Assembly: GCA_024195265.1 (NCBI GenBank)
Contig: JAJLRJ010000010.1
Span: 31,939,945 to 32,003,944 of the forward strand
Direction of reading: 5' to 3'
Source of the DNA: Dendrophyllia cribrosa
Taxonomy: Eukaryota > Cnidaria > Anthozoa > Scleractinia > Dendrophylliidae
Length of the DNA stretch: 64,000 nt
The notes under the pieces are model-generated. The model did not search any database. It was not told where the DNA came from and saw nothing but the letters and a program-made list of their open reading frames with translations. The translations under genes and the position numbers were made by a program. Shown here piece by piece: positions 23,498 through 47,300 of the stretch (its first letter is position 1; each line of letters begins with the position of its first letter).

Positions 23498-24601
23498 ACG
23501 GTGGAAGATTTTTTTTTTTGTATTTTATTGCTTTTACGTTTTTACACAAAAAATACATTTTGAAACACAGGATACAAATTAGGTAGTTACAAAACACACA
23601 TACATACAATAAAAATAAAAATAAATAAGAAAAGATAGATTTAATTACTTGTATCGTAAACGTAAGAATCTCTCCCACTTTTTGTAATGGCTTAAAAGCT
23701 TCTTTTTTTTTTTTTTTTCAATTTTAAAAATATATTTGAGTTTGGCTATCAGCAATGAAATATTAGGAATAACGGCGTTACACCTACATTGGTAAATAAG
23801 TTGTTTCCCTAATAAAATGACATGATTTATTGACATAATTTCTTTGTTATTGTTCCAATATCCAAACATAATATCTGTTTCACTAAAGTGTCCAATAGAA
23901 GGTTCAAGAATTGTATTGAGCCAATTAATTACTGATAGCCAAAACGAGTCTCTAACATGAGTACAGCGGTACAGTAAATGCTCGAGGGATTCGTCGTTCT
24001 CCTTACAAAAATTGCACAGCGGGGTTTCTACCAGCTTCATTTTGAATAGTATTTTCGATATTTTATTAGTATAAAGTATTCGATTAAGGATTTTATACTG
24101 AAACTCTCTAGTTTTACAATCAATTGTTGTCTTGTAAGGGCGTGTGTATATTTCGTTCCATCTAAAATCAAAGTTTTGGTATAGTTCTTGAAATTTAATT
24201 TGCGCTGTTGGTTTGAGAGCTATAGTGTCAACTTCATCCAAAACGTTTTCTTCGATACTGTTTTATTTGAAGTGCCTGGGTTTAAGGGAGATCCATTTGG
24301 TGGTGTATTTAAAACGTTTTCCATATTGCGACAACGCAACGTACGTTTCCAGTGTGCTGGTAAGGCGTTATACATTCTTCCTAAAAGAAAATAGTCTTAG
24401 GCGCTCAGTGCAGGATAGCGGTTTTTTAGATGGTCCATTTGCATAAATTTCCACTGTTTTGTATTATGTCAACAATATTTATAATTCCAATTTTAACTAG
24501 CTTGTCATTGTAAACCGATTTGCCACCAATACAAATGTGCTGATTGTTCCAAAGTATTTCTGGCTTCTCCAGGCTCTGATATATTCATCACGGTGGAAGA
24601 T
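23498..24601 (-). mobile_element. 5'-truncated LINE (L1/Tx1-like) with 12-bp TSD
   Basis: The insertion (23510-24589) is bounded by the exact direct repeat ACGGTGGAAGAT at 23498-23509 and 24590-24601. On the minus strand a 198-codon frame ends near 23645. It carries a zinc-knuckle-like LCNFCKENDESLEHLLYRC followed by a W, the zf-RVT region at the end of LINE ORF2. Upstream, in a broken frame, is ILWNNQHICIGGKSVYNDKL. The 3' end has AATAAAATAC and a poly(A) tail at 23510-23521. This is a canonical target-primed insertion of about 1.08 kb. Confidence 0.9.
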
Positions 24602-25850: not shown

Positions 25851-26590
25851 TTTCTTCCGCGATCGTGGGACTATGATCTGAGCATGCATATATACCTATG
25901 TTATATACCGCACCGAGATAAACAAGGACTCCAAAGCGACTTTTGGTTGCATTGGAACTTTATTGAAAACCCAAAACAAGACTCAGGACTGATGTTTGAT
26001 GCCGTTTAAGTTTTATTTATTTCCCACTCCAGTAGTTCTTTATGAACTTTAATATCCCTCATTTTGCCCCCTTCGTTTTTGCCATCGCTTCACTTAGTCA
26101 GCCTGTGAAGAAAAATTAAAACGGGAATTAATTAGTTATTAAGCAGTATTTTATGGTGGTAATGTTTATTATGCGGTGAAAGATTTTTCTACCATTTCAG
26201 TCTGTCTTTGGATGACTCATGAACACGAAAATGAAAGCAAAAGAGCATTTCTTTTTACTGCTGCTGTAGTTTATTTTCCTAACAAGGTGATTCTATGTCA
26301 AGTTTTTTTTTATTTGAAGATGAAAACAAAATATGTTTTACTTCAAAATAATTATTCCTTACAAGGTGGTTCAGTTCTTTTGCGTCTGTGGATGAAATCC
26401 TGAAGTGTGACCTTTCAAATGAAAGCTACTTTACTGTAGTGAACGTTTCAGTATGAATGACTGGGATTCTTAAAGTGATATTATTTAGCGTTTGAACATA
26501 GAGGGCAGAGAATAGCTTTGGAAACGTGATATGCAGTTATGATATTTGCACCTGATAAGTAACGGGATGTCAAATATCCGGTTGAGCTTA
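25851..26590. other. No recognised gene
   Basis: AT-rich. The 75-codon plus-strand frame at 26176-26403 has no domain or splice support. Confidence 0.35.
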
Positions 26591-26730
26591 TCAACGGCCG
26601 TTAAAGCACCATGGTACGTCAGATACGTTGTCATCGAAACAGCAGCCATTGTTCTCGCACTCTTGGCGTGATATTCCAAGATAGCCACAGTCTGTACGTT
26701 CTTGTGGATTAATTCCGTGGCATTTGTGAT
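26591..26730 (-). CDS. Trefoil (P-type) domain exon, terminal
   Basis: After an AACAG acceptor in phase 1, the minus strand reads HKCHGINPQERTDCGYLGIS, RQECENNGCCFDDNV, SDVPWCFNGR and stops. The six trefoil cysteines, the GCC(F)D core and PWCF are all present. Trefoil domains are secreted, disulfide-knotted modules found in mucosal peptides and in glycosidase-type proteins. It lies downstream of the larger trefoil exon at 26922-27193, whose AAG-G/GTGATA site could splice to it in the same phase. Alternatively it is the last exon of a separate tandem copy. No signal-peptide exon was found for either. Confidence 0.7.
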
Positions 26731-26921
26731 CTGTTGATGAAATGTATAACTATAAGCACATCAAATTTATTTCCCGTCTTCTTCAAGCAGACTTATAATG
26801 TTAACCATGTTTTACCACCTTGTAAACGTTTTTCTAAATTACATTGTTTGATCAAAATCGTAACTTCAAACTGTGTTGCTTTTATCAGATTCCTATTCTG
26901 AGACTGTTTTAACATCATGTA

Positions 26922-27193
26922 CTAACCGGTTGGAAAAAAGCACCACGCAGTATCAGGATATGTGCTGTCGTGGCAACATCCTCTCTGCACGCATTTTGTC
27001 CCGCCTATCCCAGGCCATCCGCAATCGGTACGGTCAGCGGGTGCAACAACACACTTATCACCCTTGAAGCACCATGGTACGTTAGATACGTCATCATCGA
27101 AACAGCAGCCTTTGTCCTCGCACCCTGCGCGTGATATTCCAGCATAGCCACAGTCTTCGCGGTAATGTGGGTTGATTCCGTAGCATTTGTGAT
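26922..27193 (-). CDS. Exon with two tandem trefoil-type domains
   Basis: The CGTTCAG acceptor (phase 1) is followed by HKCYGINPHYREDCGYAGIS, RAGCEDKGCCFDDDV and NVPWCF, a full trefoil domain. It runs without a break into GDKCVVAPADRTDCGWPGIG, TKCVQRGCCHDSTYP, TAWCFFPTG and a stop. The second module keeps the C..CC..WCF pattern, so the exon encodes two P-type domains and a C-terminus, 89 complete codons plus the stop. The second half and its 3' flank are duplicated at 28198-28335. It is probably secreted, but the upstream signal exon is not seen, so this could be an incomplete or decaying gene. Confidence 0.7.
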
Positions 27194-27302
27194 CTGAACG
27201 AAAAGGTAAATATCATGTATAAATAAAACGGTACGAGTTATTTTAATAATTAAAATAATAATAATGAAAATATGTATAATAACAATAACTAATTTATATA
27301 GC

Positions 27303-27435
27303 CATATACAAGCAAAAACTAACGATAAAAGAGTCCGACGTTTCGGCGACATCTTGGCGCCATTGTCAAGGGAAACTAAATTAAACAAACGGACAAACGT
27401 CGGACTCTTTTATCGTTAGTTTTTGCTTGTATATG
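27303..27435. mobile_element. Short inverted-repeat element
   Basis: ATATACAAGCAAAAACTAAC at the left end is inverted at the right; arms of about 40 bp include GAGTCCGACG. Spacer of about 55 bp. It lies between the two trefoil blocks. Confidence 0.75.
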
Positions 27436-27589
27436 TTTATCTAAATCACTGCTGATTAGAATTTATATAGCGCTATTTTTATTTAGTTCAATAGCGCTTT
27501 ATAATGAAAAATTATAATCAAATAAACTGTTTGAAACTTCTATGACGTATTAAAAAACAATAACTATGCTAACTAATACTAATAACTAA

Positions 27590-27868
27590 TAACTATATGG
27601 TTGATCAAAAAGGAATGTCTCTTTAAATTTGGTTATAAGTTCCAAAGATTTAGTGCAGAAACTGGAAAGATATTTCGTCATAGTGCTTCAGTCTTGCAAG
27701 TGAGACTTGTAGAAGATAACGCGTAGAGGTGCGTGGTTTTCCACCAAGCATATAACGCTTTAGAAGGTTTGCAATGTACTCTGGTGTCAAGTACAGTTTT
27801 GCACGGCCAAGGTTAAACAGCATTTGTTTATTGCCTGAAGCAGAAATAGAATGTTGAATCTTAAACAT
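27590..27868 (-). pseudogene. LINE C-terminal fragment
   Basis: The minus strand reads RAKLYLTPEYIANLLKRYML and then RYLLQVSLARLKHYDEISFQ. After a frameshift it continues with SALNLWNL, matching the Y+..LL..Y.P...LRSS..LL.V and AP.LWN.LP end of LINE reverse transcriptases. Broken and 5'-truncated. Confidence 0.6.
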
Positions 27869-27896
27869 CTTTTTGCGTTCGACGAAGGGGACGCAT

Positions 27897-28003
27897 CCTA
27901 ATTTTCAATGTCTTCTCCTTCTCCTCGCACTCTTCGCGTGATACACCGGCATAGCCAGTCTTCACTTCACGTTCGTAAGGGTTAATTCCGTGGCATATGT
28001 GAT
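27897..28003 (-). pseudogene. Decayed trefoil exon copy
   Basis: After an ACAG acceptor, HICHGINPYEREVKTGYAGV and SREECEE follow the trefoil pattern, but the DCG cysteine and the GCC core are lost. The flanking intron matches that of the exon at 26591-26730, so it is the duplicated counterpart of that exon. Confidence 0.6.
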
Positions 28004-28197
28004 CTGTTGATATGATATATAAATATAAGCAGTTCAAATTTATTTACGCGGTTTCTTCAAGCAGACTTTTAATGTAAACCATGAATTATCACCTTGTAAG
28101 CGTTTTTCTAAATTACATTGTTTGATCAAAATTGTAACATCAAACTGTGTGTTGCTTTTATTAGATTCCTATTCTGAGACTGTTTTAACATTATGTA

Positions 28198-28335
28198 CTA
28201 ACCGGTTGGAAAAAAGCACGACACAGTATTAGGATATGTGCTGTCATGGCAACATTCTCTCCTCAGGCAATTTGTCCTGCCTATCCCAGGCCATCCGCAA
28301 TCGGTACGGTCAGCGGGTGCAACAACACAGTTGTC
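28198..28335 (-). pseudogene. Duplicate of the second trefoil module
   Basis: CVVAPADRTDCGWPGIG is followed by TNCLRRECCHDSTYP, SCFFPTG and a stop. It has lost the W of WCF and the first G of GCC. Its 3' flank matches that of 26922-27193. No first module precedes it, so it is probably non-functional. Confidence 0.6.
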
Positions 28336-28439
28336 TAATATATCGGAAGAGACAATTCGTTATTAAATATATTGTTTATTCGTAATTTAATTTATATATC
28401 TGCTGTAAAAACCCGATTTCAAAATGTTAATTCGTCTTC

Positions 28440-28690
28440 TTGTCTTTCTAAATAAGGTATAAAATTTGACAGGTTCTACTCCAAAACGTAGCGGACACTG
28501 AAATATTAATCAAAGGCTCCTGTGAGCCAACCCGCCTTGTGAAGAAGAAATGCTCTACACATCGCTGGCTCATGTATGAGCGACCCTTTCTTACAATAAA
28601 AGGCTCCTCAGTGAGCCAACTCGTAAACATATCAAAGGCTCCTAAGAGCCAACCCGTGAATAAGAAATGCTAACACGCAACGCAATATTT
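28440..28690. repeat. Three GGCTC...GAGCC mini-hairpins
   Basis: AAAGGCTCCTGTGAGCCAAC near 28512, AAAGGCTCCTCAGTGAGCCA near 28600 and AAAGGCTCCTAAGAGCCAAC near 28634 share the same frame AAAGGCTCCT..GAGCCAAC(C/T)CG. Small local repeat of unknown role. Confidence 0.45.
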
Positions 28691-28840
28691 CGGTAAGCTT
28701 ATGCTTTCACACTGACACGGTTCGATATATTTTTTTAAAAAATTAACCGTAAGGATTTTTGACACGAGTCACGGGCGAACGCAAAAAAAAAAGGAAATCA
28801 CTTTCATAATGTCCAGTTCGAGGAAAAAAAAGAAGGAAGA

Positions 28841-28912
28841 GTCACGCGCGTGAATTGAACCCGGGCCTACCGAGTGCAAATACGGCGCCTTAGCCCACGA
28901 GGCCATCGAGGA
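28841..28912 (-). tRNA. tRNA-like gene, Ala(TGC)-like, probably pseudo
   Basis: The minus strand has an A-box-like TGGCCTCGTGGG, a possible TGC anticodon in TTTGCAC, and the B-box-like GGTTCAATTC. The anticodon stem has two mismatches and the acceptor stem is poor. It is more likely a tRNA pseudogene or the head of a tRNA-derived SINE than a working tRNA. Confidence 0.35.
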
Positions 28913-29583
28913 ACATACGCTCGATTAAGACTAAATTTTGTTATTTAAAGGTAGATACGCATCAAAACGCGTGTCTTGATTAGAAAATCCTTTTAGATCG
29001 ATTTTATGTCGGTTTTATTGTTATCGCTGGATTCACGCTGTTCTTGTTACGAAACGCATTCGTAACAAAGCATTACGTCACTAAGTTTACAGCTGATGGA
29101 AGGAGTGAGCGAGTGAGCGAGTGCTCATTTGCATATCTGTCTCCGTTACCGATAACCCGTTCACTACGCGTGCGCGTATTCACGTTTTAAAAACGCTCTA
29201 AATAAAAGATTCTACACCAATAGTCCATTTTACAGTTGTGTGCTTGGTGACCGTGCCTTTGAGTGAAAGCGAGGCTGGAGGTGACCTTGCTTTGACACAA
29301 ACCTTTTTGCCTTTCATATGTTAATAACGCTTTTCTCATGCTAACTAGCTAAATTTACATCTGAAAAGCTCCAAGGTCTGTATCATAACAAGGTCAACTG
29401 CAGCCTCCCTTCCACTCAATGGCCAGGACACTAAGAAGACAACTGTGAAATGATCTATTGTGCAGAGGATATGGCTGTTTTCCATTTACCCAAAAAATCC
29501 GGAAATTTCGGTTGGAATGTAAATGAAAGGCTAATTTGGTCTTCCCAAACGGAAAATTTCCGGAGAAAATGGGATTTCTTGAA
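28913..29583. other. No recognised gene
   Basis: The 95-codon minus-strand frame at 29394-29681 lies in the 3' region of the discoidin-TSP1 gene and has no domain. A GAGCGAGTGAGCGAGTG repeat is at about 29107. Confidence 0.35.
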
Positions 29584-30446
29584 AGGTAGTTCAAAATAAC
29601 AAATAAATAACAAGAGTTTAAAGTGGCGTTTATTTGCCTTTCAGAGTGGAACAAAGACAGTTTTGATTGGGAGGAGCTCACTGAGCTTTATAATTATAAC
29701 CCATGTTGCGCAATAAAGCTTGGCTAAATGACATCAATCAAACCTGGACAACTCTGGTTGCCGCATAATTTATTTTCCACTCTTTCTTTTTCATCACATG
29801 GTCGACCACGATTCTGAGGTTTGGGTGAGTCGCATTTCCGCTCACGTGATCGTTTTCCAACTCCACAAGTCACGCTGCATTCTGACCAATCGCTCCACTC
29901 GCCCCAGCCTCCATCGACCGAAAGGAAGTAAATGAACAGTCATGACATTTTTGACTCCTTCAAAATTCAACTTAACGCGTACATCTGGGAGCGATTTATT
30001 AAAACAATCTAAACAAGAATCGTTTTTTCACTTACCTGCCAGTGCTGAGCACCCATATAGCTCCAATCTGAGACACGAGACATTCTTTAAAGAAGAGTCT
30101 TGATCCACACCATTCCAGGCCTTGGGGTAGATTCGAATCTTGCGTGTTATGACTGGTGGCTGTAGAATATTCTTCTTTAACCTGCGGCTTGCTATATTCC
30201 CTTGAAGATTCTGCATAAAGAAGCAATCATTTACTAACGAAAGCTTCACTTTACATGTAAAAGATAAAGTTTATTGTGCATAGTACGGCCGCCTTTTTTA
30301 GGGAGTCCCATTTACTCGCTTTTCGTTAAAAATAAAATGTCCAGTCAATTCAAAGTCCAGTCGGACGACGGTGCCGGTGTCAAGCTCTGGTTCTTGAAGT
30401 CCATGACTACGTTCATTACTCATTCTATAGGAATTGCCCAGTAACC
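29584..30446. repeat. 863-bp segment duplicated at 36407-37269
   Basis: From AGGTAGTTCAAAATAAC to GCCCAGTAACC the two segments have identical length and about ten substitutions by eye, offset exactly 6823 bp in direct orientation. It contains exons 3 and 4 and the polyadenylation signal of the gene at 29724-32320. Confidence 0.9.
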
Positions 30447-32320
30447 CTCCCCCCCCCCCCCCCCCCTCCTCCCCCCCTGGCTGGGATGCTAGTCTTGATA
30501 GGGTTATGGCCCGGCCCTGCTCGGTGCTGTTTCCTGGTTGGGATGCTGCTCCATAACAGGGTTATAAACCGACATTACTCCGTACCCTCCCCTGGTTGGG
30601 AAACTAGTCCATCACAGGGTTATAGCCCAACATTACTCAGTACCCTCACCTTGTTGGGATGCTACAATTACAGACAAAAGTAGTTGGGAAGGTTGTGAAA
30701 ACGAATAGCATCAGTGGGGAATTACATCAATGTTCTCCTTATATAAAATAGAAATAATTAGTTAAATTTCTGAGTCCCCCTCCCCCCCCCCCCCCCCCCC
30801 CCCCCCCCCATCCAATGTTGGGATCTCAGCGAACAATTACGCACTAAACATGTCCCGTTATACACAACATCGTAACAGGGGGAGGGGAGAGAAAGAGAAT
30901 GATAGTGAAAACTACTAATCTTCCCAACACTTTTGTTTATGATTGTAGTCTACCACAGGGTAGGTAATAAGCCAATATTACTTTACATCTGGGTGGAGAA
31001 GATAATGTAGGTTGGGTGTTGTGTGAAGAAAGAATATGAAAAAAAAAGGGACTTGAGCACCCAACAAAATATCACCATGATCAAAATATACCTGGCTGCC
31101 ATCTGCCTTGTCATAGGTCAACCATTTTCCTTCCTTTAGGTACTTGATTTGAAATTGCGTTACCCATCTCAATTCCCGATGGCTTCCTTGGATTGTAATC
31201 GCTGTTATTGATTTTTCCTCATCCAATACGATCTGTATAAATGGCGACTGATCTTTTTTAGCTGAGCACCAGGCTCCCACCCCGTCCAGTCGTGCAAAGG
31301 CAGGGGTACTTCTATTATTTAGGCTGGATGATGCCGTAATGTTCTTATCTGGGATTGTTTTTATTCCAAGTTCGGATTTGCAGTCACCTGTCAAAGTAAA
31401 ATCATTTTGTCTTTTAGTGACTTGTGGCTAAGGGAGTTCTCTGGTGGCGAGAGTGAGTAACAAACCCTGTTTTCTCCACCCAGTGATAGTAATCATTTTG
31501 TTTTTCCAATCATCTAATAACACAAATAATGCTCAGTCTTTACTGATTTAAAAGGACATAAATGGGTCGAGCAGTGCATCCCTCCTTTCTTGTAGGATTC
31601 TCTCGTGGCTGCATGACAAACATATCCCGAGCATACATGACAATCCATTTTAATTGGTTCATTACATTGAAAAGTAAGTGTCTAATTTCCATTTATTTAT
31701 AGATTTTTTCCAAATTGCAAGAGCAGGGTGATAAGTGGATGGGAATTTTCCCGTTTCGTTGTCTTGTATGACAATGGACATTTAGAATCGCCGGGCAGCA
31801 AAATCACCGCTAATAAGGCCGGTCAGGCTTAAAGAACGCGAGAACGTGCTTGAATCACCCTGACTTCTTGCAACTTCCTGTTTTGGAGGCTTTATAGCTT
31901 AGCAAAACTCAAGGGGTATAACTATGATTTTCTTTTCATATGCATCACAGCTTTTTGTTGCTTTATTCAGTAACACATACGATTTAAACGATTAATCTAA
32001 TTTAACCCATCTAACTTAGGAAATGAAGCCCTCATACACTTATCTAAATGCTATAAGGCAACACTCGCATGTAAATTAATCGAAGACCATTGATGCTGAG
32101 CGTTAGCTACGAATAAACTGTGTAATTTGCAGGATGTTAAACCGACATTTAATCGAAAGAAGAAAGCATTGTTCTCTCTTCGCCGACGAAAATTTACCAT
32201 ATACTACAACCTTAAGTTTGTAAACATGATTAGAACACGAAAAAAAAAGCGAAACTTACCTTCAGCTCTACTGCTGAGTGATGAAATCCCTAGAAACCAC
32301 ATAAAAAGTGTACCCTTCAT
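29724..32320 (-). CDS. Secreted discoidin (F5/8C) + TSP1 protein
   Basis: Four exons give exactly 239 codons with consistent phases: 32260-32320, 31092-31387, 30036-30210, 29724-29908. Exon 1 encodes a start Met and signal peptide (MKGTLFMWFLGISSLSS). Exons 2-3 encode an F5/8-type-C domain, from CKSELGIKT through FARLDGVGAWC and IQIVLDEEKSITAITIQG to NILQPPVITRKIRIYPKAW and CLRLELYGC. Exon 4 is a TSP1 repeat, WGEWSDWSECSVTCGVGKRS, with RGRPCDE and LCGNQSC, then a stop. The exon 4 acceptor is ATGGAG/GC, required by phase. A minus-strand AATAAA lies at 29629-29634. The family suggests a small extracellular matrix or adhesion protein. The partial copy at 36407-37269 lacks exons 1-2. Confidence 0.85.
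30447..30810. repeat. 58-bp minisatellite and poly-C tracts (intron 2)
   Basis: A C tract at 30447-30470 is followed by about three copies of a ~58-bp unit starting GG(C/T)TGGGATGCT and containing CAGGGTTATA (30478-30655). A second C tract is at 30780-30809. All lie inside intron 2 of the discoidin-TSP1 gene. Confidence 0.7.
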
Positions 32321-33500
32321 TTGGCAGCTTGTTTTGTGTGTATTGAGACTACTCTTTTGTGGCAAATAGAAAATATCCAGGTACCCGAGGTTCTTCAATG
32401 AGGTTCGGCTTAAATGGAGATAAACCGACGTCACAGGGCCTGTTCAAACGTATCTAAAATTGCTAATGATAACATTGGCTTTATATAGTTTGTGGGGTCA
32501 TCAGATCGTGTCTTCCGCTATAGCGTTACACGTCTTTTGAGCTGTCTCTTTTTACCTGTTTATCAATATTGAAAGTGCTTTTGAAGCACCCTGGCTTCTT
32601 GCAACTTCCTGTTTTGAGGGCTTCAGCACAGCTTTGTAGTTCAGCTCAACTTAGGGGGTATAACTATGATTTTCCTTTTCATATACATTACAGTTTTTTG
32701 TGGCTCTCTTCAGTAGCACTTTAGATTTTAACGATTAATCTTAATGCGGGACTTATGCCCCATTCACACCAACAGTTAAACATGTTTAAATGTTGTTTAG
32801 TTTAACTACGTTTTAGCCTCTATCTTGAACGTTTTGAAATGTATATGACTCAAACTACCTGGAATGGTAATAAAGTCAATAAAGTTTCTTTTAGTAAAGA
32901 TTTCACTCCAAATATTACGGGAGGTTAGGAGGTATTTTTCTAAACCTGTTTTAAACTAAACAACATTTAAACATGTTTAAGCGTTGGTGTGAATGGGGCA
33001 TAAACCTAAACGCCATTTTTCCGCCACTTGACATGGCTTTAATGGAAATATCTCGTTCACGTTTCAAGCAATCCAAAACCTCTATACTCATCCCATGAAT
33101 CTATGTTGCGGAGTGTTTTGTAAATTTTTGGGTGATTTTTGGGTATGTTTGGGAGGAAATAGTTCTCTCAAAGGATTGGTAAAATTTAGAGAAATAAGAA
33201 ATATTGAAGATTTAGTGGAGTTTTAAAATTAGAATTTGTAGTTAATAATTAATAGGCGGACACCAAGTTAGTCCATCAGCAACCTGGGGTACTCTTGCGT
33301 GGGTATCAACTGTCTGTTGGTGTTCCAAAAATCATTTTCTTTCTCCTATCCCTTCTTTAAACCTCCTAAAATTTCATTCAAATTTAGGTTGAGTCCCGCC
33401 TTAGTCTAACCCATCTAACCTAGGGAATGAAGCCCTTATACACTTATCTAAATGCTATAAGGAAACACTCGCATGTACGATTAATCGAAGACCACCAGTT
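31850..33500. repeat. Direct duplication around the first exon, with insertion
   Basis: CTTCTTGCAACTTCCTGTTT, AGGGGTATAACTATGATTTT and CACTTATCTAAATGCTATAAGG occur in order at 31860-32095 and again at about 32588-32740 plus 33402-33500. The first copy is in intron 1 and the second lies 5' of exon 1. The second is interrupted by about 660 bp (32741-33400). Confidence 0.75.
32741..33400. mobile_element. ~660-bp insertion with GCGGGACT ends
   Basis: GCGGGACT at the left is inverted as AGTCCCGC at the right, and the uninterrupted duplicate at 31860-32095 supplies the empty site. TTA(A/G) at the borders may be the target duplication. Within it, 32753-33003 is a second element with TIRs TTATGCCCCATTCACACCAA of about 47 bp including AAACATGTTTAAATGTTG. 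Confidence 0.65.
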
Positions 33501-34163
33501 GTTATATAAGGCTGAAATTAACCTGGTTATGGATTTCCATTGGATTTCCCTTGGATTTCCGCAAATTTAATGAGCACCCAGGACTGACGTCACAATTTAG
33601 ACTTCCTGCATATAAATTTGGATTTTCCGCGTACTTTTCAAACAATGATACAATAGTCTTGCCTTGACGTGCCCGCTTTATATAATAACAAGCTTGAACC
33701 GATCATTGTTCCGTTTGAGGAGAAGGGCAGCTGTAGGAAACAAGAAAAATAACAGCAATCTGAATTGAATTATTACTATTACAGTATGTCAACTCTCTAA
33801 GCATGTTGCGCCACCAGCTTTATTACAGTTATTAGGCTCTCTGTCAAACTGCGGTTCACATTTTATCGAATGGCCCTTTCCATATTTCACCCTTGCCTCT
33901 TAGGGACTGTGCAATAATTATCAGGAGGGGGGGTTGAAAAATGAACTTCAAGTAGGAAAATATTAGGTAATCCCCCCCCCCCCCCTCTAAAGGAGTGAAT
34001 TTACTTATTGCCCCCCCCCCCCCTCTGATCAGTCAGAAACTTTGTATGAACCCCCCCCCCTTCACACACCTTTTATATACAAATACCCAGCATTTTCTTA
34101 ATATACACCCACCTGTTATTGCTACGAGGTAATGTTTGTTCCAGACGTGGATTTACAGCAATA
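33500..34163. other. No recognised gene; C-tract repeat
   Basis: 33930-34065 holds several C runs separated by short unique words and a G run (ATCAGGAGGGGGGG), a coral-style dispersed repeat. 34131-34205 contains an inverted ATGTTTGTTCCAGA. No gene. Confidence 0.4.
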
Positions 34164-34971
34164 CTACATGTTTACTTGTTGGACATCAGCATCTGGAACA
34201 AACATGACCTCGAAGCAGTGCTCAACAAAGCCATCCGATTCCACTTCTGAATCACTTGATTGCGAATCCGAATTGCTTGCACTGGAACTCATTTTCTCGT
34301 TAACGTTCTCTTGGGTTTCTCGTGGGATGCAAGAATGATCACCACGAGCGTACTGGAGAACTCGTGCAACCAGTGCCACTTTACCTCCACTGATCTTAAG
34401 ACCATTCTGGTTGAGGTACATCTTCAATCTGTTGCAATATGATTATCTTTGTTGTAGTGAAATTATGAGTTTGGTGCAATTTTGTCTGCACTGGTTCAAC
34501 GGATGTTCCTCTATTGAAACAATGTAGCATACAAAATACATTATGAATATTATATTAATTATCCCTTTTTCTCACCACAACATTCAGTTTTCATAAGTAT
34601 TAATACGAGTGACATTTTAGATTTCAAGGCATATCCACCTAAATATTAGCAAATTATCAATTCAGTTGAAATACTCTGTTGTTACCATCAAAGAAATTAA
34701 GCAAATTTTTAAAAAACGGGTTGCATTTACATGGTAGTCAATGACCCAACTTCGAACGGGTTTACAAATCTCGAGTGTCCTCTGCCACATAGGCTGAAAG
34801 ATTGAAAAATTTGTGTTTATCGCTCGTGCCTACCTTGCACTTTTTTACCGCTTTATTCCCTCTGATAAATTGTATACATTCTTCTGGGAAGAGTCCCATC
34901 GCATCTTCCTCACTGCTGATGTTACGAGCAGGAGGCACTTTGCCGATTTCTTTCCTTTGGGTCACGCTGTC
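34164..34971 (-). pseudogene. Broken recombinase-family copy with a SAP-like exon
   Basis: Minus-strand 34834-34971 corresponds to exon 10 of the recombinase gene at 37774-43966 (VPPARNISSEEDAMGLFPEE, with an upstream frameshift) and ends at a GTAGGC donor. The intron that follows is alignable. After a TTGCAACAG acceptor, 34164-34428 encodes LKMYLNQNGLKISGGKVALV, a SAP-type DNA-binding motif, then an acidic Ser-rich tail (SNSDSQSSDSEVESDG) and a stop. Where the main copy continues into C2H2 fingers, this one has a SAP-like module. Upstream exons are absent, so it is a fragment. Confidence 0.65.
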
Positions 34972-35084
34972 CTTACAGAAGGAAACATCATTTGTTTAAT
35001 TAAATTAATATCATTGTGGTCCAGTTGATGTTGTCTAAATTTTCTGCAGTCACAAGCTGCGGATCAATATTTAAGAGTGGAGCT

Positions 35085-36181
35085 ATCATTTATACTATCT
35101 AGGATAGATATTCTCATCCCGGCCACGAGGCGTCAAATTCATATCATCTTTTGTTATTTCATCCACACAAGGCATTTGACTGTTTAGTATGGTTTTGCTT
35201 CTGTTTATATGATATGAAAAATACGATGCTCTTACTCCAGAAATTCGGTAGAATAATGTAAAGTCTGTGCGACTCTTTCTTTATATGTGCACGGTCGCGC
35301 CGCCACCATCTTAATTTTTTTAACCAAAATATTCAAACCTAGGAGACACGCTTCCAATGCTATTAAATGCAGCGATTCCATCATTGTCCATGAGACAAAA
35401 ATATCCGCCTTTTTTCGTTTGATGTTCGCTGTTTTATTTTTCATATTTTCTTTGTTTTGTTTTTGTTTTGTTTTTTGCAGGAAGGCCGGACACGAGAGAG
35501 CGGCGGAATGCGAGCCCAAAGGCCAAAAAGGAATGGTCTAATATTAAGCGGGAATCAATCTTGTAAACTGGTAAGATGTGTTACATGATGCCCCCCATAT
35601 CAGAGTTTCAGTCCCGTTTATAATATGCTTTAATTCTGCGCGATTATTTATTTCACAATGTCGAGTCAGTCAATATAAATAATGCTGTCCTATTATTTTC
35701 GAAAAAAAAAATGCCCGATTATCATCCTTTCTGTATTTATTTTCACTACAGTGATATCTGAAAATTATATTAGTCATCCAATGCAAAGTGCATCGATTCC
35801 ATCATTTTGACTGTTCCTAGACGACGCACCATAAATTTCCCGCTATTTTGCTCATCACTCGTTAACTGCCATGTGTTTTTCTTTTTCATATTTAATCATT
35901 TTATTTTGGAGAAATTAGAGTGGATTGCACGCAAATTAAATATGGAATCAATCATACTAACTGGCAAGAGGCATTACTCGGTAGCTTTTGCCGTCGACTG
36001 GCTTAGAAATATGCGAGCAATCGCCTTTTACCGTCATCTTTTTTTTATCAGGGTTTTGCAAAATAGTCATGAAAGACACATGCTCAGTACATGTCTCAAT
36101 AACATTTTAATGTGTAAGAGTGAGTTGATAAAATGTTTACACATACTTTACACAAGTAGACAATTGGTTTCACCTTTATAT
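35085..36181. other. No recognised gene
   Basis: Two roughly similar stretches (GCGATTCCATCATTGTCCAT near 35372 and ATCGATTCCATCATTTTGAC near 35790, each followed by a TTTTATTTTTCATA-like stretch) suggest a local duplication. The frames at 35232-35519 and 35807-36184 show no domain. Confidence 0.35.
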
Positions 36182-36406
36182 TAGAGCAGTTTTCAATTGA
36201 GTGTCGTAAAACCAAAACCAAAGTAATTATTCTGACCAATCAGAGCAGTCGTAAACAATCCAATGAACCAATCAGAACTCGAAGCAATTACATGTCGCGG
36301 GCGCCAAGCGCGGGAAAACGCGTGCGAGCAAGTCACGATTGGTTTTGGTTTTACTTCTGATTGGTCGAGAAAGTGGCGCGAGAATTTTTAGCCAATCACA
36401 AAGCGT
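36182..36406. mobile_element. Mariner-like MITE, truncated at duplication breakpoint
   Basis: TAGAGCAGTTTTCAATTGAG through AATCACAAAGCGTA matches 54992-55276, but the right end is missing. Sequence passes directly into the duplicated 863-bp block at 36407. Confidence 0.8.
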
Positions 36407-37269
36407 AGGTAGTTCAAAATAACAAATAAATAACAAGAGTTTAAAATGGCGTTTATTTGCCTTTCAGAGTGGAACAAAGACAGTTTTGATTGGGAGGAGC
36501 TCACTGAGCTTTATAATTATAACCCATGTTGCGCAATAAAGCTTGGCTAAATGACATCAATCAAACCTGGACAACTCTGGTTGCCGCATAATTTATTTTC
36601 CACTCTTTCTTTTTCATCACATGGTCGACCACGATTCTGAGGTTTGGGTGAGTCGCATTTCCGCTCACGTGATCGTTTTCCAACTCCACAAGTCACGCTG
36701 CATTCTGACCAATCGCTCCACTCGCCCCAGCCTCCATCAACCGAAAAAAAGTAAATGAACAGTCATGACATTTTTGACTCCTTCAAAATTCAACTTAACG
36801 CGTACATCTGGGAGCGATTTATTAGAACAATCTAAACAAGAATCGTTTTTTCACTTACCTGCCAGTGCTGAGCACCCATATAGCTCCAATCTGAGACACG
36901 AGACATTCTTTAAAGAAGAGTCTTGATCCACACCATTCCAGGCCTTGGGGTAGATTCGAATCGTGCGTGTTATGACTGGTGGCTGTAGAATATTCTTCTT
37001 TAACCTGCGGCTTGCTATATTCCCTTGAAGATTCTGCACAAAGAAGCAATCATTTACTAACGAAAGCTTCACTTTACGTGTAAAAGATAAAGTTTATTGT
37101 GCATAGTACGGTCGCCTTTTTTAGGGAGTCTCATTTACTCGCTTTTCGTTAAAAATAAAATGTCCAGTCAATTCAAAGTCCAGTCGGACGACGGTGCCGG
37201 TGTCAAGCTCTGGTTCTTGAAGTCCATGACTACGTTCATTACTCATTCTATAGGAATTGCCCAGTAACC
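36407..37269 (-). pseudogene. Partial duplicate of the discoidin-TSP1 gene
   Basis: This block repeats exons 3 and 4 of the gene at 29724-32320. The discoidin half-exon is open (one change makes ITRKIRIYP into ITRTIRIYP) and so is the TSP1 exon, with splice sites and the AATAAA retained. No signal peptide or first discoidin half lies upstream within reach, so on its own it cannot make the secreted protein. It could serve as alternative 3' exons only if transcribed from elsewhere. Confidence 0.85.
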
Positions 37270-37773
37270 TGGTATTGATAACGATCACTTAAATTTCTGC
37301 AACGTGTTGTATCCTTAGAAAAAAATGTCATTGCCCCACATTGCCTCTATCCCCATCCAGATTGGTAAGGCAATACAATGATCAAAGGCATATGGCAATG
37401 CTAAATAAATATGTTGTTGTCAAAAACCCCCCGCCGCCCCCGCAAAGTTGAAATTGATGACCCCTCAGGTCTATTGTTACCCACCCCAACCCCCCATATT
37501 CCCCAAATCCAAAATGGTGACATAAACAGAAAAAATGTCATGTTCCTTGTAGACAGTTCACTACCAGATTCGATTGTTACGTCGTCTAATGAAGTTAGGA
37601 GTCTGTGAACAAAATGAGGTGGTGTGGCCATTCAATTGAAACCTACATGTATTCTGCTGTAACTTTGCACGGTACAATTTGTTCGTGAATATAGTACACA
37701 AGCAAATTGGAATGTATCTCTCATTACGACTTTTAGCTCTCTTGGGAGTGAAAGTTTTTAGGAACATAATATT
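37270..37773. other. No recognised gene
   Basis: 3' flank of the recombinase gene. A CCCCCGC...TTGAAATTGATGACCCCTCAGG segment near 37430 is similar to one near 57728, indicating a shared repeat or shared flank. Confidence 0.4.
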
Positions 37774-40700
37774 TCACTGTTCGTGTCTCCATTTCTTTTG
37801 GGAAGGGACGTCCCGATCATCATGTGCCCTCGCGACATGTCGTTTCAAGTGCCCCCCCTGGGCCGTTGCATATGGACACCATTCGCATTGAAACCGTTTC
37901 GGCAGATGCGATGAGTTAATGTGGTTCCGTAGCCCATCCAAGGTTGGGAATGCTTTGCCATCACCTGTGTAAGACAAAATGTTAGAGGTTTCGAGTTTCA
38001 ATATGCTACATTTTTTCAAATCAAAACTTCTCTATCGTGTCATCATCTGCGTGTTTAGGAAACATACCATTTGTATTTGTCTTGCACTTTTGAAAATGTC
38101 TATTTGTTTCTCTAGCAGTATAGATAAAAGGGAACAAGACATGACTAGGCCATTGAAATATGTGTAGTAGTTGTCATATGTCAATTCTTCATCTGACCAT
38201 GTGATGGCATGTTCGATGTTGTTGTTAATTTCATTGTAGCAATTTATTAACATTTATAAGAATTCTTAAACAAAACTCAGAAACACATACAATCCTTTTC
38301 GACCAGGTAAATGTCTTAGTTACCTGCGCATATCCAATTTTTGCCACTGCCATCATTTCGCTTTTCGTGTCTTGTTGCGCAGACATGTGAATTACATTCC
38401 TCGGCAGTCGAGCAAAGTACGCCGCACCCCCTGTATGGGCAACAGAATTGAGTGGGGAATTGATGCCCAACAGGGGGGATCCACCGCGACCGGGGATCTT
38501 TATGAGTTGGCGGTTGGTGATTCGTCCACTCGGCCACGGTGGCAGCGACGTCAATGGTTCTTGTAGTGACCTGTGTCAGGCAAAAAGTGAATGTGAACAT
38601 TTAGTACGCTGAATTCACAGTGGTATTTTCATCCAATGGAAAAAAGACATACGGCACAATATCCATTTAATCTGCATGACACCTTATAATACTGCATTGC
38701 TGCAGCATGATTTAAAAAACTCACAGGCTTATGCGGACCCGGTGGTTGATTCCGCCTCTCCTCATGTTGCTCTCTGTTTTTCTTGGCACAAAATCTTCTT
38801 ACTGCGCATTTGCGTGCCTGGCTAACCTTTTTAGCGTCGTTGGGATTTTTCTCTATTGAAACAATGTTGCAAAAAAGAAACCGATATTAACTGACATTTA
38901 AAGTAATGTAGAATTTTGATAAATTGTAAAATTTTCCATGCATCAACGACGGGTCCTCTGCTTGCATGGTACATAACTGTTTTTTAACTCTTCCTGAAGT
39001 TCTTTTCCCTTTCTTGTCACAACATTCTCTTCCCAATAGTTATTAACACGAGCGATCTTTTAGATGGCAATGAATATCCACCGATAGTAGCAAATAATCA
39101 ATGTAAGTGATGTACCCTGGTTTTTTTTCAAACTAAGAAATGAAATAAATTTAAAAAGGTGTCTCATTACACAGGTTAGTTGACGACCCGATTGTAAATG
39201 TGTTTTCCAACCTCTAGCGTTAACTCCCATATCAGAAAGGACAGACTTTAGTATTTATCTCAAGTGCATGCCTTGCTCTTTCTGGAATGCTTTATCCTCC
39301 CCAATGAAGTGCGCCAATTCTTCTGGAAAGAGTTCCACTGCATCTTCTTCACTTTCAATGTTTCGCGCTGGGAGTACTAGTCTATAATGATACGCGCTTG
39401 GTATACTCCTCAGTCTCTTTGCCCTTTCCTCGGGGTCTCGCAGTCCTTACAGAAGAGAACAGTGTTAGCTTCTTTCATTGACATAATACCCTCGTAGACC
39501 AGTTGACGTCGGCCAAATGTTACGCAGTGACTTGATGCGAATCACTATTTTTAAGTTGAGCAAGTAGATTAGTTGAGAGAAATTTCTTATATACATCGGA
39601 AATCATGTTGTGCGATTATGTCCTTAATTCTTGCAAACTTTTGATTGACAAGGCATTGATATTTCATTGATATTGCGATGAGAAATTTTATGCTAAAAAC
39701 TCTAAAGGGTAATTTTCGTTTTATGTTATGTCTTTCATGTTATTTTGCTTTACCTACCCTCAGTGACAAGACCACAAGTGTCTGAATATTTCTCTATGAT
39801 TCTCTTTATGTATATGTGCACGACAGCACTTCTGTCGGCCCACCCGCCAAGACGCTTCAGTTGGTCAACTGAGTTATTGTCCCAATTGCCACCATGTTCC
39901 AGTGTGTGCCTTAGAACAAACCTGGTGGCAAATCCCTGGAACATAAACATTGTTAATTTCAGCAGATTTCGCTCATAAGACAATGCAATTTGTACTTTTC
40001 ATTTCATGTAAATATATGTCTGCTCTGTTCAAAGAAGTCTCTACATTTTAATTCCATTTAGTTCAACATTCATCAAAAGAAAAGTATAATCTTCCTTGTA
40101 TAATCTGCCTTCCTTGGAGTTGACTAAATCCTCGTTTCCAATATCTAATTTTGAATTTCTTTGGTAGTGAAAGACATACGTGCCCTTTAATTTTTACATT
40201 TTAAGGATCAACATCATATAATGTACATTATCAACTTACAGATCGAAATGAACGATGCGACAGCAGTGTTGCATCTAAGCCGGCCTTTTGTATGGAGGCT
40301 TTCAGTTGTATTCCAAGATGTTGAGTCGTCATTGGTTTGCACTGAAATAGTACAAATAAGATTAGCAATAGGAATATTGTTTGTTCTGGTAGACTGTTCT
40401 TCAGAGTATAGGGATTTAAAGATGGTATATACAGTAAACGCTGTAGGACCCCATTTTCCTATATCCATGGAACAATGGGCCTGGTAAACGGCGAGTGGCA
40501 TAAAAATACAGTGGGAAGCGAGAGCAAATGTGTCTATTCCCAGTCATCACTTTTGTCCAATCCGTAGTATTAACCGTAACTTAAAGTCCCTTTTGAATGA
40601 AACATGGTTATTTTTTTTTCTTTGCAAAATTTATGCAGGTGTCAAGGTGATGTGTCATTGACATCGATATTGTAAACATCATAAGGACACTTGGTAAGTG

Positions 40701-43700
40701 GACTAGACATATCCGGAAACGCGATAAGCTAAATTGGGGTTTCTACCAACCGTCAGTGTTTGCGTGGACGTGTCCGTGATCCTGAAAACAGGCCAGTCCT
40801 TTGCATCTTCCTTAACTGCGAAATCTGGCGTGTTCCACGCCTCCAGGGGTGGCAACTTGAAGACGCCCATCCTTCCAAGGTGAAGAAATCCTAAAACCAC
40901 GGGGCAATAACGGCTACCACGGGACAGAGGCGTGAATGTGAATTCCCGTCTGAAAAGAGGCATGGATTTTCGTAAATGAATGTGGCATGCTTGGCAGTGT
41001 GTACGTTTTGTGTGGTAGGGGTAGGGGGGTAACCTGCAATAGTGCAGCTTGTTTTGCCCAAATTTAGCAGTCAATCTTTAAAAATTGTTGGGTTCAATAT
41101 CTTTGAAGTTTTAATGTTCAACTCATTGACATAGCTATAACTTTTTTTTTCATGTCTTCAGGTTTTCTTGTTCAGATGATTTTCCAGTTGCAACCAGTGA
41201 AAATCTATCAAGCCAGCATCCGATTCTACAAACCGACATTACCTGTGCATACGATTGGACGCATCGGCCTTCTCGTGAGTTAGTGTCAGTGTCATGACCA
41301 CATTGAGCGTCTCATCTGATCTGGAGATTTGAAAATTTCAAAAGTGTAGGCGATGTAGGTATCATACTATTATTTTCTATTAATGATATAAATGGCACAC
41401 GTCTTTACTTATATTTTAAACGCGTGGTAATGTATCTTACTTGTATTAACGACATACACCTTATTCCAAAATGGCGGTCAATTTATGATTCTTTTATATG
41501 CATGTTAATTAGCCCTCTTGGCCTCATTTTCGCTTGAAAATTCCTTTGTATTTTGCACATGCTGACGAGGCCATGAGGGCTAATTAAAATGCATATAAAA
41601 GAATAATAAATTGGCCGCCATTTTGGAATAAGGTGTATAAATGTGTTGCTTGTAAAACATCTCAATATGCCATTTCTTTTCAACGTGATTTTGCCAAAAT
41701 GTGCAAGGCTGGTGAATTCATTAATTGAATTGGTATCTAGCAAGATGCCCTATCTACCAAATATTTATATATGGTAGTTGAAATCCACGTACTCGAACTT
41801 CACGTCCCGTACTCTTAGTCCTTCGTAATCGGGAGGCGGCTGCAGCCCAATGTCATTTCGCAGTTGAATCAACTCCTGGCTGGAATATGGTTTAACAATC
41901 GAGCCGGCCCGTGCCCCGCAATGAGCGGATAAGCTACACATGAAGGAAACTAGAGAAAAGAAATATTTCAATATTATTGAATTAATATGGTATGATTACA
42001 AAATGTAATCATATTTTTGTTACAGTTTGTTGTGTTGCTTTGGTTTTTATGCGGTGGGGTGTGTAACATGGTCAATGGCCTCCCAAAAAATACCAAAGGA
42101 CTATTACTATGACATTTGCATTAGTCTACTTTATCAGTTTATCATAAGTTACAACCTGAATCTCAAGTGGAAATATGGCACCAGGAAGAGAGAGGATACG
42201 TTCTTTTCAATTAGTAGTGTAACGCTACTTACGCTGAAGTGAAGACTCCGACTCCATCCCTATTATGTCCAATAGGTGCTCGGTGTCTTGTTGCATTAAC
42301 GCGTTTTTTGGTGCAATGGGATAGTCCCCCACTTCCTTTCGCACAAACTTCGCAAGGGTCGATCCCAACTCGGGGAACATTTTTCCTGGGCTCTCGTGAT
42401 TGTTGGACATTTGCTGAAAAGTAGAGAACAAATCGTTTTTTGCCGGGATGTTTGCATTGCTCGATTAATGGATGTTCTTTATTAGGGCACAATACCGCAT
42501 TTATAGCAATATTTTTTACATTGACACGTGCAGCGTTTAAAACATGTAATGCAATATCGGAATATTTATATATAACAATGTAGACCGGAAATAAAAACAA
42601 GAAATTAAAATATTTTGACATGGTAAATACTTTAGTGAATGATCAAATGATAACGATTTGTTTCTTTAACCTGAGAAACAAAAAGTGGTCTTACCCACAT
42701 GCACACTCCTTTGTAGAGATTGTTCATAATACGGGCATAAGAGTAGCCGGCTTGCGCCAGAGAGACGCAAAATCCTTTGATATCTAATTCTGGGATCGGA
42801 AACGCCACTGCTCTTCCCGGGTGTGCATGCTGCTGCCACACCAAGAACAGCTTCCTGGCATCTACCAGCGATCTTAACTAGACGTGAATAAAAATAATGT
42901 AACATCAAACAGAACAAAGATTGATAGCACATGAGATGGTCGTAGCACATTTCGACAGCAATTATAATTCTAATTTTGTGATCTGCAAAAGGGATATTGA
43001 CAACCCATCACAGCAGATGTGCAAGTGGGCATAACATAATAACAACGGTAATAATGGAATGTCAATATTGGAGTACTAAATGTTTGTTTAACCACTCATT
43101 CATTTTTAGTCTTTGGGCAACGTTACATTTGTCCCGGTGGGTGCTTCTTTGCAGCACGGCTGAACTGAGTGAAATGGAAAAATAGATTTTATTTTCTTCC
43201 CCTTTGGGAGAAACAATATTATGGAAGTGTATGAGTCAACGTTACGAGCTATTTGATACTACTGGAAGGAGGACGCTTCAATCGAGTGGATGACTTGAAA
43301 AGGCTTCACAGAGGCTTCCATCAATACCAATTTGTACAAATTTGTAATGTTTTTCATGTAGCGTTTTGATTGTTGTCGAGCAATGTTGTTTTGACGATTT
43401 TTAGAAATGTCCGTTCCATGTTCTAAACATGATACGGACACTGTATTTGAAGAGCACTATATTAACTTTAAATAAAGCTAACCGCCTTAACATATATGCG
43501 TGTATTGGTTATTTTCTTGTATTACTTGATTTTGAAGACTACGCTTAATAGTTTTCAGAGTGGACGAAGGAACTATGTAAAAAAAAAAACACTTCTTACC
43601 GTAGTCAAACTTAGAGTTTCAATATACATTTTTTTGGCCCTATCCAAATCTCTTGTTACATCTCCTATGGAGTTGTGAAATCTTTCAACCATTGCTCCTT

Positions 43701-43966
43701 CTACTCTCAGTCCCATTACTCCAAAAATGTCCTCGTCGGGGATAACGCCTGCGAATCGTTAAGATCTGTTAAATTTGAAATGATGACTTTCTCTTTAACA
43801 AAAAAACGAGTTATACAAGCAGTAATATGGATAGACATTAGCTAAAAATAAATAATTAATGTGGAACAAAGGATGGTACTCTGAGAGGTGAGACATAGGG
43901 AATGGACGTTTCAATAAACTGAAAAAAGTACTTACTCTCAATTTCGGATAGTCGTGGTTGGTCCAT
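37774..43966 (-). CDS. Tyrosine recombinase-like + C2H2 zinc-finger gene
   Basis: Minus-strand exons: 43936-43966 (MDQPRLSEIE), 43600-43748, 42695-42877, 42233-42413, ~41789-41949, 41243-41320, 40751-40949, 40240-40341, 39758-39935, 39272-39445, 38725-38852, 38324-38570, 37774-37964. Phases agree at every junction except 5/6, whose donor is unresolved. Exon 3 resembles the helical core-binding domain of phage-integrase-type enzymes. Exon 5 has GARAGSIVK (first catalytic Arg), exon 8 HRSFRS (HxxR), exon 9 RLGGWADRS then HIYIKR (Trp and Tyr). Exons 12-13 hold FCCPYRGCGVLCSTAEECNS..H..H and FQCEWCPYATAQGGHLKRHV..H fingers, then a stop. Exon 10 needs a GC donor to join the finger exons (related copies have GT); otherwise translation stops at 39255. 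About 665 residues. It could be an active or domesticated mobile element. Confidence 0.75.
41456..41636. mobile_element. TA-flanked MITE in intron 5
   Basis: CACCTTATTCCAAAATGGCG at one end is inverted at the other, with arms of about 70 bp and a TA on both sides. The equivalent intron of the plus-strand copy (around 60440-60500) lacks it, so it inserted after the copies diverged. Its ends and TA target fit Tc1/mariner derivatives. Confidence 0.8.
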
Positions 43967-44510
43967 GGTGAAAAACATGAGGGGACTGAAGAAAGCTGTT
44001 GGTTATACAGGTGTTTTATTGCGCTTTTTTGCGCGGGTGGCAAACACGAATGACGTGATTTCGCGCCAAAATCATTTTCCCGCCAGAAGTCCGGGCCACT
44101 CGCACACGCGGCCGTTCTTTTCCCGCCTTTGTATCTCCCCGTCATGTAGATGTCAATGCAATGTCGCGGCATTGGTGTCATGTTTTGTATCTAAGAGGGG
44201 AGGGGTATTGGACTGACATCATTGTGCTGTCCAGAAGGAGTACCCCGAGGGCCGAAGAAACAAGAAAAGTTTCAAGACACTCTGTTTTAATGATAGTATC
44301 AGACAAGAAAGATTTTTTTGTTATTAATCTGTATTCCTGTTCGCAAAAAAAAGAAATTCCGCTCACTGCCTATTACATGAAATTTTGGCGACGCGTTAAT
44401 TTAACGATTTTCACAAATCCGTATTTAGCGGCACTTTAATTTAGTGATTATTCGTAAATTTTGGAACTTAAGTCACTTAATTTTTGCGATTTTACAAACT
44501 GAAACTTTGG
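43967..44510. other. 5' flank of the recombinase gene
   Basis: The minus-strand ORF at 43795-44181 runs through exon 1 and its upstream region and is not an independent gene. No clear promoter element is identified. Confidence 0.35.
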
Positions 44511-46803
44511 CGAATGATGGGAATTGGGATATGATGGAAATGGAGGTATGATGGGAATGGGGGATATGATGGAAATGGGGGTATGATGGAAATAGGGGTA
44601 TGATGGAAATGGGGATATGATGGAAATGGGGGTATAATGGAAATGGGGATATGATGGGAATGGGGATATGATGGAAATGGGGATATGATGGGAATGGGGA
44701 TATAATGGAAATGGGGATATGATGGAAATGGGGATATGATGGAAATGGGGGTATAATGGGAATGGGGATATGATGGAAATGGGGGGTATGATGGGAATGG
44801 GGATATGATGAAAATGGGGATATGACGGAAATGGAGATATGATAGAAATGGGGGTATGATGGAAATGGGGATATGATGGGAAATGGAGTATGATGGAAAT
44901 GGGGGTATGATGGGAATGGGGGTATGATGGAAATGGGGGGTATGATGGGAATGGGGATATGATGAAAATGGGGATATGATGGAAATGGAGATATGATAGA
45001 AATGGGGGTATGATGGAAATGGGGATATGATGGAAATGGGGATATGATGGAAATGGGGATATGATGGAAATGGGGGTATGATGGAAATGGGGGTATGATG
45101 GAAATGGGGATATGATGGAAATGGGGATATGATAGAAATGGGGATATGATGGGAATGGGGATATGATAGAAATGGGGGTATGATGGAAATGGGGATATGA
45201 TGGAAATGGGGATATGATGGAAATAGGGATATGATAGAAATATATGATGGAAATGGGGATATGATGGAAATGGGGATATGATGGAAATAGGGATATGATA
45301 GAAATATATGATGGAAATGGGGATATGATGGAAATGGGGATATGATGAATATGGGGATATGATGGAAATGGGGATATGATGGAAATGGGGATATGATGGA
45401 AATGGGGATATGATAGAAATGGTGGTATGATGGAAATGGGGGTATGATGGAAATGGGGATACGATGGAAATGGGAATATGATGGAAATAGGGATATGATA
45501 GAAATGGGGATATGATGGAAATGGGGATATGATGGAAATGGGGATATGATGAATATGGGAATATGATGGAAATGGGGATATGATGGAAATGGGGATATGA
45601 CGGAAATGGGGATATGATAGAAATGGGGGTATGATGGAAATGGGGGTATAATGAAAATGGGGATATGATGGAAATGGGGATATGATAGAAATGGGGATAT
45701 GATGGAAATGGGGATATGATGGAAATGGGGATATGATGGAAATGGGGATATGATGGAAATGGGGATATGATAGAAATGGGGGTATGATGGAAATGGGGAT
45801 ATGATAGAAATGGGGGTATGATGGAAATGGGGATATGATGGAAATGGAGATATGATAGAAATGGGGGTATGATGGAAATGGGGATATGATGGGAATGGGG
45901 ATATGATGGAAATGGGGGTATGATGGGAATCGGGATATGATGGAAATGGAGATATGATGGAAATGGGGTTGTGATGGAAATGGGGGTATGATGGAAATGG
46001 GGGTATGATGGAAATGGGGGGTATTATGGAAATGGGGGTATGATGGAAATGGGGATATGATGGAAATGGGGATATGATGGAAATGGGGATATGATGGAAA
46101 TGGGGGATATGAAGGAAATGGGGTTATGATGGAAATGGGGATATAATGGAAATGGAGATATGATAGAAATGGGGGTATGATGGAAATGGGGATATGATAG
46201 AAATGGGGGTATGATGGAAATGGGGATATGATGGAAATGGAGATATGATGGAAATGGGTATAATGGAAATGGGGATATGATGGGAATGGGGGTATGATGG
46301 AAATGGGGGTATGATGGAATTGGGGGTATGATGGAAATGGGGATATGATGGAAATGGGGATATGATGGAAATGGGGGATATGAAGGAAATGGGGTTATGA
46401 TGGAAATGGGGATATGATGGAAATGGGGATATGATGGAAATGGGGATATGATGGAAATGGGGATATGATGGAAATGGGGGATATGAAGGAAATGGGGTTA
46501 TGATGGAAATGGGGATATAATGGAAATGGAGATATGATAGAAATGGGGGTATGATGGAAATGGGGATATGATGGAAATGGGGATATGATAGAAATGGGGG
46601 TATGATGGAAATGGGGATATGATGGAAATGGAGATATGATGGAAATGGGGTATAATGGAAATGGGGATATGATGGAAATGGGGGTATGATGGAAATGGGG
46701 GTATGATGGAAATGGGGGTATGATGGAAATGGGGAAATGATGGAAATGGGGTTATGATGGAAATGGGGTTTGATGAGAATTGGGATATGAAGGGAGTGGT
46801 GAT
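44511..46803. repeat. 17-bp minisatellite, ~2.3 kb
   Basis: Tandem units of ATGATGGAAATGGGGAT with variants (GGGAATG, GGGGGTATG, TAGAAATG), roughly 130 copies. There are a few higher-order blocks, for example GATATGAAGGAAATGGGGTT repeated near 46110, 46380 and 46490. It begins about 550 bp upstream of the recombinase start. A short array of the same unit in reverse complement lies at 59143-59385, beside the plus-strand copies. Confidence 0.95.
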
Positions 46804-47300
46804 ATAATTAGTGATGGTAATCGTATCAATAACAAAATTTTCGATTGTGATTGGCCATCGGCACGCCTATTTCTAACGTAATTGGCATGCGATCACATGG
46901 GTGTCCAATTACAGCTATCCAATTTTGAACTTGTTGTAATTGGCTAGCTGTAATTGGACACCTAAGTTGCGCTCACGTCAATTAGTTGCACCTCCGTGGG
47001 TTCTTTTTTGTTGTTTTCCTTCTACTTTGAAACTGATGAAAAATATACAAGACGTTTTTAGTACAAAAGAGTCGACATCGACTGGTTATTGATGTGATTA
47101 ATTCGTAATTGAACTTTGTGTCGTACAATTCAGGGGTCATCGCGCTCGTAATTTCAAATCATCCTCGTGCTATGTGATTGGCCTATTTGAAATTACTTTC
47201 CCGATTACTCCTTGAATTGTACTCCACTCAGTCCATGAATTACTATTACAAATTGGGTTACAGTGGGAATGGTGATATAATGGGAATGGGGCCACGATGG
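46804..47300. repeat. Two inverted repeats, no gene
   Basis: GGTGTCCAATTACAGCTA near 46910 pairs with TAGCTGTAATTGGACACC near 46948. GTACAATTCAGGGGTCAT near 47123 pairs partly with the sequence ending near 47221. Non-coding. Confidence 0.5.

Follow-up and report, generated by a model that had tools for sequence, protein, structure and literature searches.

A multi-exon animal gene encoding a protein with remote similarity to tyrosine recombinases and C-terminal C2H2 zinc fingers

The DNA analysed here, a single 64-kb stretch referred to as the window, includes a set of short exons that the original prediction had read as a tyrosine recombinase fused to zinc fingers. The locus raises the question of whether these exons constitute a real gene, whether the product is related to tyrosine recombinases, and whether such a gene would belong to a mobile element or to the host. 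All 13 of the predicted exons were located on the minus strand and, when spliced in silico from position 43966 to 37776, were found to form a single open frame of 665 residues (gene A). For comparison, the 13-exon pattern was shifted to 5000 random offsets; those falling in the satellite or beyond the end were dropped, which left 4717. Each of these placements included at least 3 stops, with a mean of 34, and a placement with zero stops never occurred. The introns of gene A have GT..AG boundaries in 11 of 12 cases, the exception being the GC..AG intron that follows exon 10, with its donor between 39272 and 39271. With this GC donor used, 12/12 junctions are in phase, so that the in-phase assembly predicted from the sequence was upheld, but the one junction said to be an exception was not. 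In the three paralogs described below (B, C and D), the same donor position is occupied by GT, and the exon 10 boundary is therefore probably right, with A being the copy that changed. A protein ending after exon 10, as would arise if the GC donor were left unused and consist of the recombinase without fingers, was also considered, but the GT in the paralogs favours splicing.

The start codon of gene A lies in exon 1 (43936-43966, 31 nt), which is followed by exon 2 (43600-43748) and exon 3 (42695-42877). For these exons and exon 13, which have no paralog in the window, the model is drawn only from the frame and the splice consensus. The frame and the splice sites kept in paralog D both support exon 4 (42233-42413), exon 5 (41793-41949), exon 6 (41243-41320), exon 7 (40751-40949), exon 8 (40240-40341), exon 9 (39758-39935) and exon 11 (38725-38852). 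Exon 5 carries the predicted Arg I (R195, in GAR), also seen in the HMMER alignment, exon 6 a candidate catalytic lysine (K251) assigned by position only, and exon 8 the HRSFR motif with the predicted Arg II (R359), to which Pfam and HMMER alignments extend. W392 and the candidate nucleophile Y402 are encoded by exon 9, where hhalign adds to the support, and a basic linker by exon 11. Exon 10 (39272-39445), which ends at the GC donor, is supported by the frame and by the GT in B, C and D. The first C2H2 finger and the start of a degenerate finger lie in exon 12 (38324-38570; frame, Pfam and D), and the end of the degenerate finger, the last C2H2 finger and the C-terminus in exon 13 (37776-37964; frame and Pfam).

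Three stretches related to gene A, absent from the original prediction, were found within the window. Paralog D (59391-64000, plus strand) extends from intron 3 to exon 12 and continues past the end of the window, the exon 12 region being present twice in tandem (62967-64000). Fragment C (57237-59136, plus strand) comprises exon 9 with stops, exon 10 and the first part of exon 11, along with a repeated segment of intron 9, and fragment B (34559-35095, minus strand) comprises part of intron 9, a partly deleted exon 10 and part of intron 10. Paralog D is decayed and has at least five frame lesions, of a kind absent from A: exons 4 and 6 each have a four-base insertion, exons 5 and 12 contain in-frame stops, and exon 11 has lost 19 bases. 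The splice sites of exons 4-12 are all kept in D, with AG at 9/9 acceptors and GT at 9/9 donors (18/18); the insertion in exon 6 lies directly before the donor, where the donor region has three extra bases.

Comparison of A with D across 474 codons of exons 4-12 gave 68 differences at first, 43 at second and 151 at third codon positions. The dN/dS ratio of the pair, calculated by the Nei-Gojobori method with gapped codons and D-inserted columns excluded and the one remaining in-frame stop codon skipped in the rates, is 0.19 (bootstrap 0.13-0.25), and 0 of 1000 replicates reached 1. Purifying selection has therefore acted on the protein during much of the interval after A and D split. Chance assembly of the gene A exons is ruled out by the random offsets, the splice sites of D and this ratio, and the structure of exons 4-12 is established.

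A comparison of A (37776-43966) with D (59391-63304) also revealed introns that are more similar than exons. Differences were found at 54 of the 162 four-fold degenerate sites and at 291 of the 2099 aligned intron sites, and 6 of 8 introns are more similar than both flanking exons. CpG explains only part of the excess likeness (with CpG sites removed, differences at 29/121 four-fold degenerate sites versus 245/1984 intron sites), which could arise from gene conversion limited to the introns or from constraint on them. The five copy ends that are visible (two each in B and C and one in D) each lie at a different place in the gene, and this suggests segmental duplication.

The core of A was compared with known protein families. 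The sole Pfam match was DUF3435 (PF11917), with an E-value of 0.016 and 14.6 bits (E 0.019 for another version of the core), and DUF3435 was likewise the sole match for the core of D (E 0.0016, 17.9 bits); both scores are below the curated cut-off of 25.8 bits. Phage_integrase and DUF3504, the Pfam families named in the original prediction, gave no match at E-values up to 5 and 10, a range in which the HMMER filter discards most matches above about 0.1. The whole 665-aa protein matched no recombinase family in Pfam, giving weak zinc fingers and, in the N-terminal part, Propep_M14 (E 0.03-0.17), which was taken as chance. NCBIfam and the PHROGs integrases included no recombinase match to the gene A protein, and there was no recombinase among the PDB matches of either the whole protein or the core. 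Ten protease chains matched by the core in PDB (E 0.15 or worse) and eight matches in phage records (E 2 to 4, five of them annotated as tail fibres) were taken as chance, and two PHROGs families of unknown function (E 0.1 and 0.3) were set aside. Relatives sought by pattern yielded 1 and 7 matched stretches in viral contigs and 26 in prokaryote genomes, 0 of which were confirmed.

A catalytic-domain profile was built separately from E. coli XerD together with 78 frames taken from 80 loci in viral contigs (84 aligned stretches). With HMMER, this profile scored 9.8 bits against A in two stretches, covering the Arg I and Arg II regions in order. The best control score was 6.3 bits among 2001 sequences (the reversed sequence plus 2000 shuffles; scores were reported for 1286) and 6.7 bits among 5000 block shuffles (3521 reporting a score). 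Paralog D scored 4.7 bits, with -1.9 for the Arg I stretch. An hhalign comparison using the alignment of A and D gave a score of 31.5 (P 0.00035), and the highest score among 300 block shuffles was 24.5. The hhalign probability is low at 37%; an initial run under a different setting, in which the alignment covered the entire domain with Tyr on Tyr, gave 11%. The full-length XerD profile reached 4.5 bits against A, and 4 of the 3000 block-shuffled sequences and 1 of the 3000 fully shuffled ones did as well or better. No match was obtained with the profile of the XerD N-terminal domain (-0.0 bits, with shuffles up to 7.9). The core of A is remotely similar to the catalytic domain of tyrosine recombinases, and on these alignments is very probably tyrosine-recombinase-like. 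The predicted recombinase was therefore borne out as a remote catalytic-domain similarity, seen with DUF3435, the XerD/phage profile and hhalign, but not at the level of full-length XerD.

R195, R359, W392 and Y402 of A fit the recombinase positions, with Arg I, Arg II and Tyr in order, as in the R...HxxR...W...Y layout that had been proposed. The HxxR part of that layout did not stand, as HRSFRS is not an HxxR motif and the histidine in HRSFR is displaced; hhalign placed R356 on the XerD histidine, and HMMER aligned H355 with it by means of a one-residue insertion. Arg I and Arg II are 164 residues apart in A, and Arg II and Tyr 43. At the position of Tyr402, the tyrosine is kept in C and the codon is changed in D.

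The displaced histidine and the loss of Tyr in D would be explained if A and its relatives were a tandem host family of sequence-specific DNA-binding proteins in which the recombinase domain is catalytically dead, comparable to the Crypton-derived ZMYM2 and QRICH1. A precedent is provided by Crypton-derived animal genes, which are described as lacking most of the catalytic tetrad, with many serving as regulators (PMC3212892). However, A has all four of Arg I, Arg II, Trp and Tyr, C also has the Tyr, and DUF3504 was not matched. Catalytic death is considered doubtful; it is a sub-case of the explanation preferred below, and the likelihoods of the two overlap.

By Cys/His spacing, one C2H2 finger is present in exon 12 and one in exon 13, as originally predicted, and an additional degenerate finger, with one Cys missing, spans the exon 12-13 junction. 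The Pfam finger scores are under the curated cut-offs (zf-C2H2, 19.0 versus 25.2 bits). In PDB, 51 sequences that are zinc-finger proteins by name matched the C-terminal part of the whole protein, the zinc-finger chains having E-values down to 5.7e-6.

The surroundings of gene A were examined for signs of mobility. Open frames of at least 150 aa are absent from 25960-44447, and therefore no intact reverse transcriptase accompanies gene A, in agreement with the original prediction. The frames present at 26-37 kb, with their trefoil, F5/8C and TSP1 domains, mark the genome as that of an animal. The only two inverted repeats of at least 16 bases found in the 36500-44510 region lie within introns, namely a 19-base palindrome in intron 2 and a repeat with 72-base arms in intron 5 (41454-41638). 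The latter may be a small inserted element, and intron 5 of D is shorter by 140 bases.

Several other features were recorded in the window. A 17-base tandem repeat of ~135 copies (44514-46805) begins ~550 bases upstream of the gene A start codon, and between fragments C and D lies an array (59150-59370) whose unit is similar but on the opposite strand. A direct repeat of 863 bases, 98.8% identical, is found at 29584-30446 and 36407-37269, with a TSP1-like frame in each copy, and the second copy ends ~500 bases past the last exon of gene A. Sub-threshold matches were obtained to zf-RVT for a frame at 23645-24262 and to SAP (E 0.0004) for a minus-strand frame at 34167-34442, ~120 bases downstream of fragment B. 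A further minus-strand frame at 9366-9605 matched DEAD/DEAH helicases (E 3.6e-8), and is possibly a RecQ-like fragment.

It could be argued that gene A encodes the recombinase of an intron-bearing mobile DNA element, Starship- or Crypton-like, that would move via Tyr402, with B, C and D as its dead copies. Four copies, three of them decayed, lie within 30 kb, and the separation of 164 between Arg I and Arg II is near the 167 given for the Sanctuary captain, and far from the 119 given for Cre. However, direct or terminal inverted repeats of at least 16 bases that would bound gene A were not found in 36500-44510, the visible copy ends differ, and the introns are at the same places in the copies. 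In addition, the nearby frames resemble host gene exons and no cargo gene was recognised among the frames scanned in the window. We consider a mobile element unlikely, and the 'undescribed mobile-element class' of the original prediction finds no support inside the window. With no bounding repeats of that length and copy ends like those of segmental duplications, the 'domesticated recombinase' offered alongside it appears to be the better half of that proposal.

Captain recombinases are described from fungi, where very large elements are moved by them, and many fungal DUF3435 proteins carry C2H2 fingers. DUF3435, the only Pfam match of the core in A and D though below the cut-off, is the recombinase family of Starship elements according to two reports (PMC12134995, PMC12506042). 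The Sanctuary captain resembles gene A in having a middle recombinase domain and a C-terminal DNA-binding domain, represented in A by the C2H2 fingers, and in its Arg I-Arg II distance. It differs in the distance from Arg II to Tyr, given as 31 (32 in Cre), which is longer in A, and in that the Sanctuary captain and HhpA are described as having Tyr in place of the HxxR histidine (PMC12506042), where A has Arg or a shifted His. Gene A is further set apart from Starship captains by its animal host and 12 introns, and no giant element is seen at the locus.

Animal Cryptons (CryptonA and CryptonI) and DUF3504 genes are like gene A in their animal host, recombinase domain and lack of a reverse transcriptase, and some domesticated genes bear other zinc fingers (ZMYM). 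Unlike these, gene A has no DUF3504 match, and animal Cryptons have no C-terminal domain (PMC3212892), whereas gene A has C2H2 fingers. The DIRS/Ngaro/PAT retrotransposons also bring a recombinase domain into animal genomes, but no long frame for a reverse transcriptase or Gag is found at the gene A locus, and the zinc finger of DIRS-type elements is described in Gag (PMC4157794). XerD and phage integrases match gene A collinearly at the Arg I and Arg II regions and Tyr, but the similarity is remote, their N-terminal domain is unmatched, and gene A has zinc fingers and introns. Among the matches listed from the open-licence literature (titles and beginnings of abstracts), none describes an animal recombinase gene that is rich in introns and bears C2H2 fingers. 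As evidence of novelty this is weak, and the novelty of gene A is provisional.

That gene A is an unrelated multi-exon zinc-finger protein with recombinase motifs by chance is improbable, for although every profile match is weak and below curated cut-offs, the hhalign probability is 11-37% and 5 of 6000 shuffles equalled or passed the full-length XerD score, Pfam and the separately built catalytic profile agree on the superfamily and on the Arg II region, and 0 of 7001 control sequences and 0 of 300 shuffled alignments scored as high. The explanation that we prefer, and to which we give about even chances, is that gene A is a real and intact multi-exon animal gene, belonging to a small local family formed by segmental duplication, and a host-resident, domesticated derivative of a recombinase. 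Domestication is the most likely history as judged from one 64-kb window.

The product of the domesticated gene would consist of an N-terminal region without a recognised fold, a tyrosine-recombinase-like catalytic domain and C-terminal C2H2 fingers, and the neighbouring copies would have decayed while A stayed whole. A recombinase fold and DNA binding are predicted, with the fingers and the recombinase clamp together binding a specific DNA site. The product is possibly still catalytic. If the predicted active site (R195, K251, R359, W392 and Y402) works, Tyr402 would cut one strand via a 3'-phosphotyrosine, and strand exchange would follow.

A bolder reading, which we regard as rather unlikely, is that the captain-like (DUF3435) recombinases have a branch in animals to which gene A belongs, with its target set by the fused C2H2 fingers and its activity kept by selection, whether it is a domesticated gene or drives a Starship-like element that has gone unrecognised. 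If true, an intron-rich relative of the captains with zinc fingers and under purifying selection would extend the captain family to animals. Gene A would then also exemplify the natural fusion of a recombinase to DNA-reading C2H2 fingers, and would show that tyrosine recombinases can be domesticated along a second path, in addition to the one that led to the Crypton-derived genes.
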